A stretch of DNA of 64,000 nt, taken from positions 1,798,001 through 1,862,000 of the forward strand of contig NZ_CP168151.1 in NCBI RefSeq assembly GCF_026913205.2, read 5' to 3'. The first letter of the stretch is position 1. Every line of letters starts with the position of its first letter. The notes under the pieces are model-generated. The model had not been told where the DNA came from. It did no database searches and saw only the letters and a list, made by a program, of their open reading frames with translations. The translations under genes were made by a program, and so were the position numbers. Shown here one piece after another: positions 44,601-51,148 of the stretch. This stretch comes from Lentilactobacillus sp. SPB1-3 (lineage in GTDB: Bacteria; Bacillota; Bacilli; Lactobacillales; Lactobacillaceae).

Positions 44601-44734
44601 ATAGCTAATGTGATTTAGGTTCGAGTTTTTAAGGTCTTGTTTTATTTTTATGAAATAACTTCCTTGGAATTACGTACAACTAGATACATTAACAAATTTT
44701 TTTATCGCGCAACTGCGCAAGGAGGTTTCATATT

Positions 44735-44938
44735 ATGAAACAAGGTACTGTTAAATGGTTTAACGCTGACAAAGGTTACGGATTCATTACTACTGACGAC
44801 GGTGACGTATTCGTTCACTTCTCAGCTATCCAAAAAGACGGCTTCAAGTCATTAGACGAAGGCCAAAAAGTTACTCTTGACGTTGAAGACAGCGACCGTG
44901 GACCACAAGCTGCTAACGTTAACGTTGTTGAAGACTAA
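44735..44938 (+). CDS. csp: Cold-shock protein, CspA family
   Basis: The 67-residue single-domain protein has both RNA-binding motifs, KGYGFI (RNP1) and VFVHF (RNP2), and binds single-stranded RNA and DNA as a chaperone. AAGGAGG lies before the ATG. Codon use is strongly biased (GAC, AAC, GGT), as in highly expressed genes. A long leader and two tandem hairpins frame the gene. Confidence 0.97.
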
Positions 44939-44954
44939 TAATTCAACATCATCT

Positions 44955-44982
44955 AAACCAGTGATTATTCACTGGTTTTTTT
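44955..44982 (+). terminator. csp terminator
   Basis: AAACCAGTGA / TCACTGGTTT with a 4-base loop is followed by a T run. Confidence 0.9.
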
Positions 44983-45007
44983 GTACATAAAAATATCTTT
45001 AAACACC

Positions 45008-48081: not shown

Positions 48082-48117
48082 AAAACAACCAGCTAATTAT
48101 ATTAGCCGGTTGTTTTT
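48082..48117. terminator. Bidirectional terminator
   Basis: AAAACAACCAGCTAAT / ATTAGCCGGTTGTTTT with one mismatch lies between the small acidic protein gene and the convergent ABC operon. Confidence 0.87.
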
Positions 48118-48884
48118 TAGTTCTCGAATAAAGAGATTAACTCATTCTTTGTTAATCGTTGTTTTTCTTCATTATTTAGATCAACTTTGATTTGGCCATC
48201 TTGAACCATGATCAAACGATTGCCATAAGTTAAGGCATCTTCGACTTTGTGGGTAATCATTAATGAAGTTAGTTGTTGTTCTGTAACAACTTGGTTGGTC
48301 AACTCCATCACTTCAGCGCTAGTTTTAGGATCGAGAGCAGCTGTGTGTTCGTCTAATAGTAATAATGCTGGCGAACTAACTGTTGCCATTAATAATGACA
48401 GTGCTTGCCGTTGTCCACCAGATAAATATTTAACTGGCGTATCAAGACGATTCTCAAGTCCCATTTGTAAACTAGTCAATTTCATTTTGAACTCTTGACG
48501 TTTCTTTTGGGAATTGAAAAAGCGGAGATTAATGCGGCCATTTGCTTTTTCAGCTACTGCCATATTTTCATATACTGTCAAATCACCTGCAGTTCCCAGC
48601 TTTGCATCTTGGAATACTCTCGAGATCCATTTCGATCGAGAAGAAATCGATTTGTTAGTAATGTCATTGCCCATAATCTTCATCGTGCCTGCATCAGCTT
48701 TTAAATTACCGGCAATCACGTTCAACAAAGTGGATTTACCAGCCCCGTTATTACCGATTACTGAGATAAAATCACCAGGGTGAATATCTAAACTGACGTC
48801 TTTTAAGATATGCCGCTGATTTTCCGTACCTGGGAAGAAAATTTTATGGACGTGCTGCATTTCTAAAACAGAAGAACTATTCAT
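48117..48884 (-). CDS. ABC importer ATP-binding subunit (TrpXYZ-like, COG1101 type)
   Basis: The 255-residue ATPase has Walker A GNNGAGKST, signature LSGGQRQALSL, Walker B LLLDEHTAALD and the switch His in MITHKVEDA. It powers the membrane permease encoded just before it; the two frames overlap by 8 bp. It is the third gene of the operon controlled by the phenylalanine-rich leader. Family members are predicted aromatic amino acid importers. Confidence 0.9.
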   Translation of the reverse strand: MNSSSVLEMQHVHKIFFPGTENQRHILKDVSLDIHPGDFISVIGNNGAGKSTLLNVIAGNLKADAGTMKIMGNDITNKSISSRSKWISRVFQDAKLGTAGDLTVYENMAVAEKANGRINLRFFNSQKKRQEFKMKLTSLQMGLENRLDTPVKYLSGGQRQALSLLMATVSSPALLLLDEHTAALDPKTSAEVMELTNQVVTEQQLTSLMITHKVEDALTYGNRLIMVQDGQIKVDLNNEEKQRLTKNELISLFEN

Positions 48885-49794
48885 TTATCTTCACCCCTGA
48901 CTTTAAATTAATTTTTTGAAGGTAACGTTTCAATTGTTGTCGAGAACGATATTGATTTTGAATCATTGGCAATACGATTACGATAACTAAGATGATTGCC
49001 GATAAGATTTTCAGATCATCTGGTGATACCCCAACGTTCATTGCTAACGTCAATAACACTCGGTAAACGATTGCTCCTAATACCATAGCGGTCAATCGCC
49101 AAACCATTTTCTTAGCAGGGAGAATTATTTCTCCAACCAATACGGATGCCAAACCAATGACGATGGTGCCAATTCCCATACCAATATCTGCGAATCCGTT
49201 ACTTTGAGCAATCAGTGAACCGGAAACAGCAATCAAACCATTGGAAATTCCGTAACCTAAGATGATGGTCCGATTTGTTTTGATGCCATTTGCTGCACTC
49301 ATCGTGGCATTATTACCAGTAGCTCTTAGAGCCAGACCACTTTGCGTTTTGAAGAATGTTACCAATAAACCAACCACTACTGTACAAATGATCAGGCCAA
49401 TGATAATTGTTTGAACCGTAACGTCCCAAGTTTCTGGAAGGTAACTAGTTAACACCCGTTGATCTAATAAAGGAATGTTAGCTTTGCCCATAATATGCAT
49501 ATTAATGGAATACAGCCCTGTCATAGTCAAAATACCAGCTAATAAAGAGGGAATGTGGAGTTGCGTATCCAACAATCCGGTGACCACACCAGCTAAGAAT
49601 CCAACAACGAATCCGCATAACATAGCCACGATTGCTGATTGTCCTGACAACATTAATTTAATAGTGACCGCTGCACCCAGCGGGAAACTCCCCTCAGTGG
49701 TTAAATCAGGAATGTCCAAAATTCGAAAAGTAATAAATACCCCAATCGTTAAACACGCCCACATCAGTCCCTGTCCAATACCATCAATAATCAT
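48877..49794 (-). CDS. ABC importer permease (TrpXYZ-like, COG4120 type)
   Basis: The 305-residue protein has about eight hydrophobic helices and resembles the branched-chain amino acid/ribose permease fold (TTEGSFPLGAAVTIKLML near the N-terminus, ALRATGNNATMSAANGI in the middle). It should form the membrane channel of the importer. It starts 29 bp after the binding-protein gene and overlaps the ATPase gene by 8 bp, so all three are coupled. Confidence 0.9.
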   Translation of the reverse strand: MIIDGIGQGLMWACLTIGVFITFRILDIPDLTTEGSFPLGAAVTIKLMLSGQSAIVAMLCGFVVGFLAGVVTGLLDTQLHIPSLLAGILTMTGLYSINMHIMGKANIPLLDQRVLTSYLPETWDVTVQTIIIGLIICTVVVGLLVTFFKTQSGLALRATGNNATMSAANGIKTNRTIILGYGISNGLIAVSGSLIAQSNGFADIGMGIGTIVIGLASVLVGEIILPAKKMVWRLTAMVLGAIVYRVLLTLAMNVGVSPDDLKILSAIILVIVIVLPMIQNQYRSRQQLKRYLQKINLKSGVKINE

Positions 49795-49823: not shown

Positions 49824-50789
49824 CTATGGTTCTTGAATCTTTGCTGGGTCGATTCCCAATTTTTTAGCCCGTTCGTTGTTCACGTATAGGCGCAAAGTCT
49901 TTGATTTTTCCACTGGCATATCTTTAGGATTCTTTTTATCCAAAATCACCTTGGCAGCCATCTTGGCGGTTTGTTTACCTAAGTCGCGATAGTTAATACC
50001 ATAAGTCGCAGTACCACCATCTTGGGCCATTTCAATCGAACCAGTCACAACAGGTAATTTCTTTTCGCCAGCAACCTTACCAATAATCTTCATTGAGCTA
50101 GCCATTAAGTTATCAGTTGGTAAGTAAAGGCCTGAGATTTTGTTACTTAGAACACTTAGTGCTGATTGAACATCGTTTGATGAATTAACACTGATCACCT
50201 TTAACTTCAGATTATTTTTCTTAGCATATTGTTTAGCCATGTTTACTTGAAGTCCTGAATTTTCTTCAGATGAGTTATACATAACCCCAATTGGCTTGTT
50301 GTTCTTAGTCAAACTCTTTAATAACTTCAATTGCTTATCTACTGGTCCAAGATCCATTGTTCCAGAAACATTGGTGCCTGGTTTTTCAGTGCTCTTAACC
50401 AATCCGGCTGATTTCAAATCAGTAACGGCGGTTGTAAGAATTGGTGTCGTCTTAGTCTGCTTAGCAACGGTTTGTGCTGATGGTGTTGCGATAGCCAAAA
50501 TCAAATCTGGCTTTTTTTGAACGATTTGACGACTCATAGTGTTCAAGTTAGCTTGGTCACCTTGAGCATTTTGATAGTTAAAAGCAACCTGCCACTTAGG
50601 TTGTTTGTCTTTAATTTCTTTGGTTAATTCACTTTCAAACCCTTTTCGAGCGGCGTCAAGTGAACCATGTTGAACGATTTGTAAAACGCCCACGTTAACT
50701 GTTTTGTCTTTAGATGCCGATGATGAACAACCTGCCAAAGTAAGTGCAATAACGGGTAGAGCGATAATTCCCAATAATGATTTTTTCAT
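49824..50789 (-). CDS. ABC importer substrate-binding lipoprotein (TrpX-like, COG2984 type)
   Basis: The 321-residue protein has a lipoprotein signal peptide (MKKSLLGIIALPVIALTLAGC, lipobox LAGC), then two Rossmann-type lobes, with VNVGVLQIVQHGSLDAARKG at the mature N-terminus and TATYGINYRDLGKQTAKMA near the end. It should capture the ligand outside the membrane. Family members in Firmicutes are predicted to bind tryptophan or tyrosine; the Phe-rich leader here argues for phenylalanine or aromatic amino acids in general. The ATG at 50789 has GGGAGG 8 bases upstream. Confidence 0.88.
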   Translation of the reverse strand: MKKSLLGIIALPVIALTLAGCSSSASKDKTVNVGVLQIVQHGSLDAARKGFESELTKEIKDKQPKWQVAFNYQNAQGDQANLNTMSRQIVQKKPDLILAIATPSAQTVAKQTKTTPILTTAVTDLKSAGLVKSTEKPGTNVSGTMDLGPVDKQLKLLKSLTKNNKPIGVMYNSSEENSGLQVNMAKQYAKKNNLKLKVISVNSSNDVQSALSVLSNKISGLYLPTDNLMASSMKIIGKVAGEKKLPVVTGSIEMAQDGGTATYGINYRDLGKQTAKMAAKVILDKKNPKDMPVEKSKTLRLYVNNERAKKLGIDPAKIQEP

Positions 50790-50817
50790 GATAAATTCCT
50801 CCCAAATTTTAAGAAAC

Positions 50818-50852
50818 AAAAAAACCAGCTAGATAAAGTTCATCTAGCTGGT
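50818..50852 (-). terminator. Attenuator terminator of the ABC importer leader (F:G hairpin)
   Basis: On the minus strand ACCAGCTAGAT / ATCTAGCTGGT with a 7-base loop is followed by seven T. It lies 28 bases before the binding-protein ATG. The 5' arm (F, 50842-50851) can instead pair with E (50870-50879), which is identical in sequence to the 3' arm G (50825-50834). Confidence 0.88.
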
Positions 50853-50992
50853 ACGGGCCCGTTATTGTCCCAGCTAGATCAATCTCGTATCTAACTGGCA
50901 GATTATTTCATGTATAAAAACACCTTAGCCATTTGATTAGATACGAACGCAGTGCGTGAGCGTTCGTATCCAAGTTGTCGAATACAAACGCT
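50825..50992 (-). promoter_or_regulatory. Seven-segment relay attenuator with phenylalanine leader peptide
   Basis: Minus-strand segments, each complementary to the next: A 50982-50992 AGCGTTTGTAT; B 50959-50970 GATACGAACGCT; C 50937-50950 GCGTTCGTATCTAA; D 50885-50898 CCAGTTAGATACGA; E 50870-50879 ATCTAGCTGG; F 50842-50851 CCAGCTAGAT; G 50825-50834 ATCTAGCTGG. Pairs A:B 11 bp (one G-U), B:C 11, C:D 10, D:E 10 (one G-U), E:F 10, F:G 10-11. A:B, C:D and E:F can coexist and leave G free (read-through); B:C, D:E and F:G can coexist and end in the terminator. The leader peptide stop codon lies in A, so ribosome position there would choose the set. Confidence 0.8.
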
Positions 50993-51053
50993 ATCTAAAG
51001 AAAAAGCTAAAGGCAAATTCATTATTCAATTGTGTGTATTTAAGTTTTTGCAT
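50991..51053 (-). CDS. Phenylalanine-rich leader peptide (20 residues)
   Basis: The frame begins MQKLKYTQ and ends EFAFSFFFR: five Phe among the last eight residues (codons 13, 15, 17, 18, 19), and one Tyr at codon 6. GGAGG (51063-51067) lies 9 bases before the ATG. It sits between a promoter and the alternating hairpins, exactly where leader peptides such as PheL lie in enteric attenuators. Its product is probably only a sensor of charged tRNA-Phe supply. The TAG stop (50991-50993) overlaps hairpin segment A. Confidence 0.85.
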   Translation of the reverse strand: MQKLKYTQLNNEFAFSFFFR

Positions 51054-51084
51054 AGTTGCAAACCTCCACAAATGATTAAAACTA

Positions 51085-51113
51085 ATTTAACATTAAATGA
51101 GAAAGACTGTCAA
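51085..51113 (-). promoter_or_regulatory. Promoter of the ABC importer leader
   Basis: Perfect -35 TTGACA (51108-51113), 17-base spacer and a weaker -10 TTAAAT (51085-51090). The expected start near 51078 gives a leader of about 290 bases. Confidence 0.65.
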
Positions 51114-51148
51114 CATCAATTTAAAATTTGATTTATTTGGACAACCTA

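Follow-up and report, generated by a model that had tools for sequence, protein, structure and literature searches.

Background

The trp and pheA attenuators of Escherichia coli operate through two links between successive RNA segments (2:3 and 3:4), accompanied by a protector hairpin. The Rfam family RF02863 (sRNA_2410) is listed as an Enterococcus small RNA. The trpB motif, RF04312 (SRC-39-1), has more than 900 members, mostly situated before an uncharacterised amino-acid ABC transporter, and is regarded by its authors as a strong riboswitch candidate for which a classic attenuator is still possible, according to excerpts of their report (PMC11109978). An excerpt from another report describes uORFC-13-1, found before aroF in Acholeplasma, as a short upstream open reading frame (uORF) with one or more Phe codons and a terminator, preceding an aromatic-pathway gene (PMC8632094).

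Here we describe a leader located before an ABC importer in a 64,000-nucleotide stretch of the Lentilactobacillus sp. SPB1-3 genome (contig NZ_CP168151.1, positions 1,798,001 to 1,862,000), hereafter the window. With a probability of roughly 0.83, we consider it a transcription attenuator in which a ribosome translating a short peptide senses charged Phe-tRNA and its position would be relayed over about 150 bases through alternative helices. A search of the open-access literature found no report of the leader peptide or relay, which may have appeared in print elsewhere.

Organisation of the leader

The leader comprises the following features, in window coordinates.

51084-51113, minus strand: promoter-like site, TTGACA-18-TAAATT with TG before the second hexamer; score not above shuffles, position fits
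51063-51067, minus strand: GGAGG ribosome-binding site for the leader peptide, 10 bases before the uORF
50991-51053, minus strand: leader-peptide uORF of 20 codons, MQKLKYTQLNNEFAFSFFFR, conserved in relatives
50991-51013, minus strand: segment U, the end of the uORF; pairs with C
50978-50990, minus strand: segment A as segmented by folding for the swap test (50992-50982 in the first-pass annotation)
50961-50973, minus strand: segment B; pairs with A or C
50923-50950, minus strand: segment C; pairs with B, U or D
50886-50898, minus strand: segment D; pairs with C or E, also with G
50870-50881, minus strand: segment E; pairs with D or F
50840-50852, minus strand: segment F, terminator 5' arm; pairs with E (antiterminator) or G
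50824-50836, minus strand: segment G, terminator 3' arm
50814-50824, minus strand: terminator T-tract

The first-pass annotation, made from the letters of the DNA, had proposed most of this arrangement. Direct reading of the minus strand confirmed the GGAGG and the Phe-rich frame, in which codons 13, 15, 17, 18 and 19 specify Phe, giving five within the last eight codons. Segments A to G lie where they had been placed, and all six neighbouring duplexes were computed to form (A:B -13.6, B:C -19.0, C:D -11.4, D:E -13.6, E:F -15.3 and F:G -15.3 kcal/mol), with F:G a perfect 13 bp terminator followed by the T-tract. The proposed promoter fared less well: the TTGACA hexamer is present (51113-51108, separated by an 18-base spacer from TAAATT at 51089-51084, minus strand) and its position fits, but as shuffled leaders average 3.4 sites against the one observed, it is plausible by place rather than by score.

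Beyond the six links, the strongest of all 21 pairwise duplexes are D:G (-13.6 kcal/mol) and E:G (-9.9 kcal/mol), owing to the resemblance of D to F and of E to G. A further helix, absent from the first-pass annotation, joins U to C (51013-50991 with 50944-50923; 18 pairs, -16.6 kcal/mol). The structural elements of an attenuator are found: a translatable short open reading frame that has its own ribosome-binding site and contains the regulating codons, mutually exclusive helices and an intrinsic terminator. Neither a T-box (RF00230) nor a riboswitch reached its gathering score in the window, for which Rfam gives cspA alone; the T-box control usually assigned to TrpXYZ-type importers, which the first-pass annotation had noted, is therefore not applicable here. 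The cspA thermoregulator RNA (RF01766) lies at 44626-44983 on the plus strand (95.6 bits). A DUF7671 protein (PF24710; 51149-51463) adjoins the leader upstream on the same strand.

Proposed mechanism

When no ribosome is present, U:C would form around the hairpin A:B, followed by D:E and F:G, resulting in termination. A ribosome stalled on the Phe codons would cover U, allowing A:B to form and C to take D; E, left free, would then pair with F before G is made, such that transcription enters the importer genes. A ribosome at the stop codon would instead cover both U and A, and the formation of B:C, D:E and F:G would again cause termination. The addition of U:C would therefore produce the classical logic, with untranslated or fully translated leaders terminating and a Phe stall permitting read-through. 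The alternatives proposed earlier for the stalled and stop-codon ribosome are supported by the analyses below, but, as the first-pass annotation missed U:C, its version would have an untranslated leader read through.

A family of Phe/Tyr leaders

RF02863 aligns with the window over its full model length (1-196) at 35.9 bits (E 1.6e-4), short of the gathering threshold of 61 bits; judged by sequence, the window leader is a divergent member of an RF02863-type leader family. Among 198 genomes of the order Lactobacillales, RF02863 was matched in 107 at E 0.01 (48 above the cut-off), with no matches in 14 control genomes. As this count includes some Trp leaders (e.g. G113:C2:93882), a peptide profile, built from 21 rows, gives a stricter figure: 104 of 295 genomes of the order, representing 34 of 74 genera, at E 0.01. 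At E 0.1, the profile matched six of 24 Lentilactobacillus genomes, four of them clearly, and 28 of 299 in a sample of the phylum, almost all weakly. The leader picked out in the window is thus real, but is one of a family rather than unique, and conservation of its peptide, the absence of which had been named as grounds for rejecting the proposal, extends across relatives.

The typical uORF of the family ends (Q)LNN-[YF]YFSYFR, most commonly QLNN-YYFSYFR. Among the matches listed from a pattern scan (80 of 118 loci), it occurs in Enterococcus, Tetragenococcus, Vagococcus, Streptococcus, Lactobacillus, Aerococcus and Atopobacter; the matches listed also include leaders preceding prephenate dehydratase in Oceanobacillus, Jeotgalicoccus and Salinicoccus, and others in Eubacterium, Clostridium and Terrisporobacter. 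From 207 loci, 36 of which yielded no member, 148 distinct members were obtained, to which three from the genus (L003-L005) were added to make 151; these three and the duplicates L238-L239 were missed at first because the search pattern barred Ala before FS. Six of the non-member loci are apparent chance matches to the pattern (L077, L084, L110, L116, L128 and L133). Eight RF02863 matches in family f4 (L248-L255) are without an FSYFR-type uORF by the pattern rule.

Clustering of the first gene downstream of the 148 members by BLAST gave 86 TrpX-like binding proteins, 40 AroE, six DAHP synthases, four chorismate synthases, three prephenate dehydratases, three NSS transporters and three other binding proteins, with a shikimate kinase, a LIVCS-like transporter and an IS200-like transposase as singletons; six representatives were confirmed in Pfam, while the other-binding-protein, LIVCS-like and transposase labels were assigned by eye. 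Together with the clade and specificity residue of the importer, this association indicates that the controlled genes fit aromatic amino-acid metabolism. The transposase is the first open reading frame after a Tetragenococcus leader (L082), where it takes the place of the aromatic gene. The Rfam type of RF02863, 'Gene; sRNA', implies a stand-alone, trans-acting small RNA, and a terminated leader would indeed appear as a short RNA. However, all 148 members lie on the same strand as aromatic amino-acid genes and 100-400 bases before them (the distance also being a search condition), and the terminator stands before the gene, making a trans-acting role highly improbable.

The Ser of FSYFR is encoded by AGC in 92 of 94 cases, and in 85 of 89 among members found other than by the codon-fixed scan, which is what U:C pairing would demand. 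The Leu codons of the upstream LN vary (40 CTG, 17 TTG, nine TTA, five CTA and one CTT), and LN is therefore kept as peptide or for another reason. The motif QLNN itself (codons 8-11 of the window uORF, 51032-51021) is kept family-wide and recurs in some Trp leaders. Retention of LN despite varied codons, and its presence before Trp in 40 of the 70 Trp leaders described below, could be accounted for by nascent-peptide arrest, with a QLNN...FSFFFR peptide binding an aromatic amino acid, or stalling by itself, and the relay reading the stall. We think this unlikely, as FSYFR is fixed at the RNA level too, explained by U:C pairing, and the aromatic codons are placed exactly where stalling would free A.

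The sensor lacks Tyr in 13 of the 151 members, among them the window leader and three others from the genus; the all-Phe sensor within the genus is represented by these four members, two of which are 95% alike. Leaders of PheA genes carry FFFSYF (3/3), and those of AroE genes, under a strict labelling rule, YYFSYF (6/9).

Coevolution of the relay links

The links were assessed with a swap test, comparing the pairing of each segment with its own partner to that with the partners from other leaders. Segmentation, via the A:B, D:E and F:G folds and the C motif, was possible for 102 of the 151 members, giving 65 non-redundant leaders. Own pairing exceeded swapped pairing in 52 for U:C, 64 for A:B, 45 for B:C, 53 for C:D, 65 for D:E, 58 for E:F and 65 for F:G (all p <= 7e-6); delimiting A:B, D:E and F:G by folding biases these three toward their own partners, a bias from which B:C, C:D and E:F are free. 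Non-relay controls were not significant across the same 65 leaders (U:E 35, p 0.19; A:C 33, p 0.19; B:D 26, p 0.83; C:F 29, p 0.91); as the genomes are related by descent, these pairs correct for kinship partly. Weak coevolution was detected for D:G (40 of 65, p 0.01). A compensatory change in E:F is visible inside the genus, where G-C in the window is replaced by A-U in two relatives (L005 and L006). The relay of segments A to G proposed from the single sequence is hence supported by coevolution in relatives. Hairpins arising by chance were considered as a source of the pattern, and are ruled out by the swap test and by shuffles.

A shorter attenuator might suffice, consisting of A:B, B:C and the terminator, with D:E an independent hairpin and the long relay incidental. 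Three clostridial- or staphylococcal-like leaders from outside the order (L087, L109 and L122) possess a single hairpin after C, the four-link form, so a shorter relay can work, and Trp leaders likewise have four links. Yet C:D and E:F coevolve in 53 and 58 of the 65 leaders, whereas C:F, at 29, does not, and we regard such an arrangement as quite unlikely here. The same three leaders suggest that the six-link relay arose from a four-link form by gaining a hairpin.

Folding with a masked ribosome

Folding was repeated with the ribosome masked at different codons in 117 of the 151 members, the 34 with weak or doubtful terminators being dropped, taking as the measure the probability that the terminator 5' arm is sequestered before the 3' arm is made. 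Mean sequestration was 0.614 in free leaders and 0.661 with the ribosome at the stop codon, against 0.748, 0.734, 0.753 and 0.696 with it at the sensor codons. Among 75 non-redundant members, the stalled value exceeded that at the stop codon by more than 0.1 in 30 and the reverse held in two (22 and 29 of 225 shuffles); it exceeded the free value in 43, with the reverse in four (41 and 63 of 225 shuffles). Being absent from shuffled leaders, the effect of ribosome position goes beyond chance. Folded with their terminators, 21 leaders mostly show U:C around A:B.

In the window, a transcript ending before F folds as U:C, A:B and D:E when free, as A:B and C:D with the ribosome stalled at codon 13, 15 or 17, and as B:C and D:E with it at codon 19 or the stop. 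Once F is added, equilibrium favours E:F in all ribosome states, and 5'-arm sequestration in the window alone is flat, at 0.82-0.84 for every ribosome position under equilibrium folding. For the complete leader, equilibrium folding predicts F:G with a stalled ribosome, and D:G around E:F without a ribosome or with one at the stop, the opposite of the model. The masked folding suggested by the first-pass annotation consequently follows the model for the transcript up to F, but is flat or reversed for the full leader at equilibrium.

Given these reversed end states, the model requires that D:E or E:F persist during the synthesis of G, and the decision between E:F and F:G in the window would, on this modelling, rest on kinetics. 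The barrier from D:E to E:F was computed as 10.9 kcal/mol in the window, with a median of 15.5 kcal/mol over 65 leaders; under an assumed prefactor of 1e6 per second, the exchange would take seconds or longer, such that the case for kinetic trapping combines a computed barrier with an assumed rate. Before G exists, D:E is the more stable in 32 of the 65 leaders and no more.

A probable sister family with Trp leaders

RF04312 aligns weakly with segments D to G of the window (27.5 bits, against a gathering threshold of 59) and had no match in the SPB1-3 genome at E 0.001. Of 198 genomes of the order, 114 had an RF04312 match at E 0.001, with 41 above the cut-off. A Trp-containing uORF with a ribosome-binding site lies just upstream in all 70 of the RF04312 loci inspected (L303 and L307-L375), made up of the 30 best and 40 picked from the matches listed; the same rule was satisfied by 84 of 1400 shuffles and by 16 of 150 shifted windows. 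Low-scoring RF04312 matches (47.3 bits or less) outside the 70 include at least 13 that sit on Phe/Tyr leaders, and no Trp uORF was found with three weak matches outside the order (L304-L306). The uORFs mostly end WQSWRR or WQSR, and 52 of the 70 have two or more Trp. By inspection of 11 folds, the first hairpin corresponds to B:C and the terminator can take C, giving four links. The swap test on 39 of these leaders favoured own partners in 32 for A:B, 38 for B:C and 39 for F:G; C:F, with 23 (p 0.034), is weakly supported because the control A:C also reached p 0.045.

With all 70 loci bearing Trp uORFs, RF04312 looks like a Trp leader-peptide attenuator, a sister of the Phe/Tyr leaders. A metabolite riboswitch or T-box, as which the trpB motif is provisionally classed, would agree with the strong candidacy its authors give it in the excerpted account (PMC11109978) and with the weak alignment to D-G; nevertheless, with uORFs conserved in both families and no T-box or riboswitch match at gathering score in the window, it is a very remote prospect for the leader described here. 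The Bacillota probably possess a single modular superfamily of leader-peptide relays for aromatic amino-acid uptake and synthesis, with an even number of links, four in Trp leaders (RF04312) and six in Phe/Tyr leaders (RF02863), both kinds being found in the SPB1-3 genome. Relay length would change by the gain or loss of one terminator-like hairpin, and as the number of links stays even, the switch would keep its sense.

Importer genes and cargo

The genes concerned are as follows, the first three in window coordinates.

49824-50789, minus strand: TrpX-like substrate-binding lipoprotein (PF04392) of the Phe/Tyr-leader clade, with Tyr 267 and Ser 251 at published specificity positions
48877-49794, minus strand: ABC permease (PF02653)
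48117-48884, minus strand: ABC ATP-binding protein (PF00005)
G000:C1:419148-420017, minus strand: second TrpX-like gene of the SPB1-3 genome (L394), on the Trp side of the tree

In a tree of the binding proteins, one branch (support 0.848) contains all 23 Trp-leader proteins and none of the 73 Phe/Tyr-leader proteins, with the window protein outside it. The closest solved structures to the window protein are 6hni (230 bits), 3lft (191) and 3lkv (175), for which bound Tyr, Trp and Phe are reported in excerpts of one study (PMC6816091). The same excerpts tie the Tyr found at position 279 of CD0873 to the exclusion of Trp, the Trp binder having Gln in its place, and describe contact between Glu-263 and the Tyr hydroxyl (PMC6816091). 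The equivalent of position 279 is Tyr in 71 of 73 Phe/Tyr-leader proteins (the other two being gaps), the window's included, and Gln in 23 of 23 Trp-leader proteins; the window protein has Ser where CD0873 has Glu. No clear pattern linked Tyr codons to the 263-equivalent residue among the leader-class proteins. The TrpX equivalog NF041285 (cut-off 390) is missed by the window protein, which scores 301; two Trp-clade proteins pass (477 and 455) and two Phe/Tyr-clade proteins fail (335 and 334).

Of 24 Lentilactobacillus genomes, four have two PF04392 genes, and it is these same four that carry the Phe leader; one of them (G023) is 83% complete. In 20 of 22 genomes, a uORF ending WQSR or similar stands before the Trp-side PF04392 copy; in SPB1-3 the uORF, MNKITLRLWQLR, lies around 360 bases upstream of L394, with a terminator in between. 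As the SPB1-3 genome has chorismate synthase, loss of the common pathway is not why the importer exists. Protein sequence comparison favours Phe rather than Trp as the cargo, with Tyr also compatible. The earlier suggestion of a Phe importer is thereby favoured over a Trp importer, the importer lying outside the Trp clade and having Tyr at the specificity position.

Implications and comparison with known systems

These results propose a function for an Rfam sRNA family, RF02863, and provide an alternative, testable account of a large published riboswitch candidate, RF04312. They point to leader-peptide attenuation as a common form of aromatic-gene control in an order for which T-boxes are usually the mechanism discussed. 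Leader class would predict importer cargo, and would correct 'tryptophan transporter' names. The relay would also represent a natural example of a signal passing through six successive RNA strand exchanges, useful for studies of co-transcriptional folding.

The leader can be compared with four described systems. uORFC-13-1 belongs to another taxon and gene, and is likened to the window by description, not by sequence. RF04312 shares with it a uORF (for Trp), U, A, B and C segments, a terminator and TrpX-type importers downstream, but would sense Trp and has four links against six. RF02863 matches 51010-50808 end-to-end, with the same U:C, A:B, middle hairpin and terminator; unlike the window leader, it is assigned no leader-peptide function by Rfam, and the window peptide is all-Phe and one codon longer. 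Finally, like the trp and pheA attenuators of E. coli, the window has a peptide rich in the regulating amino acid, alternative hairpins, an intrinsic terminator and three-state logic, and it differs from them in having six links plus U:C.
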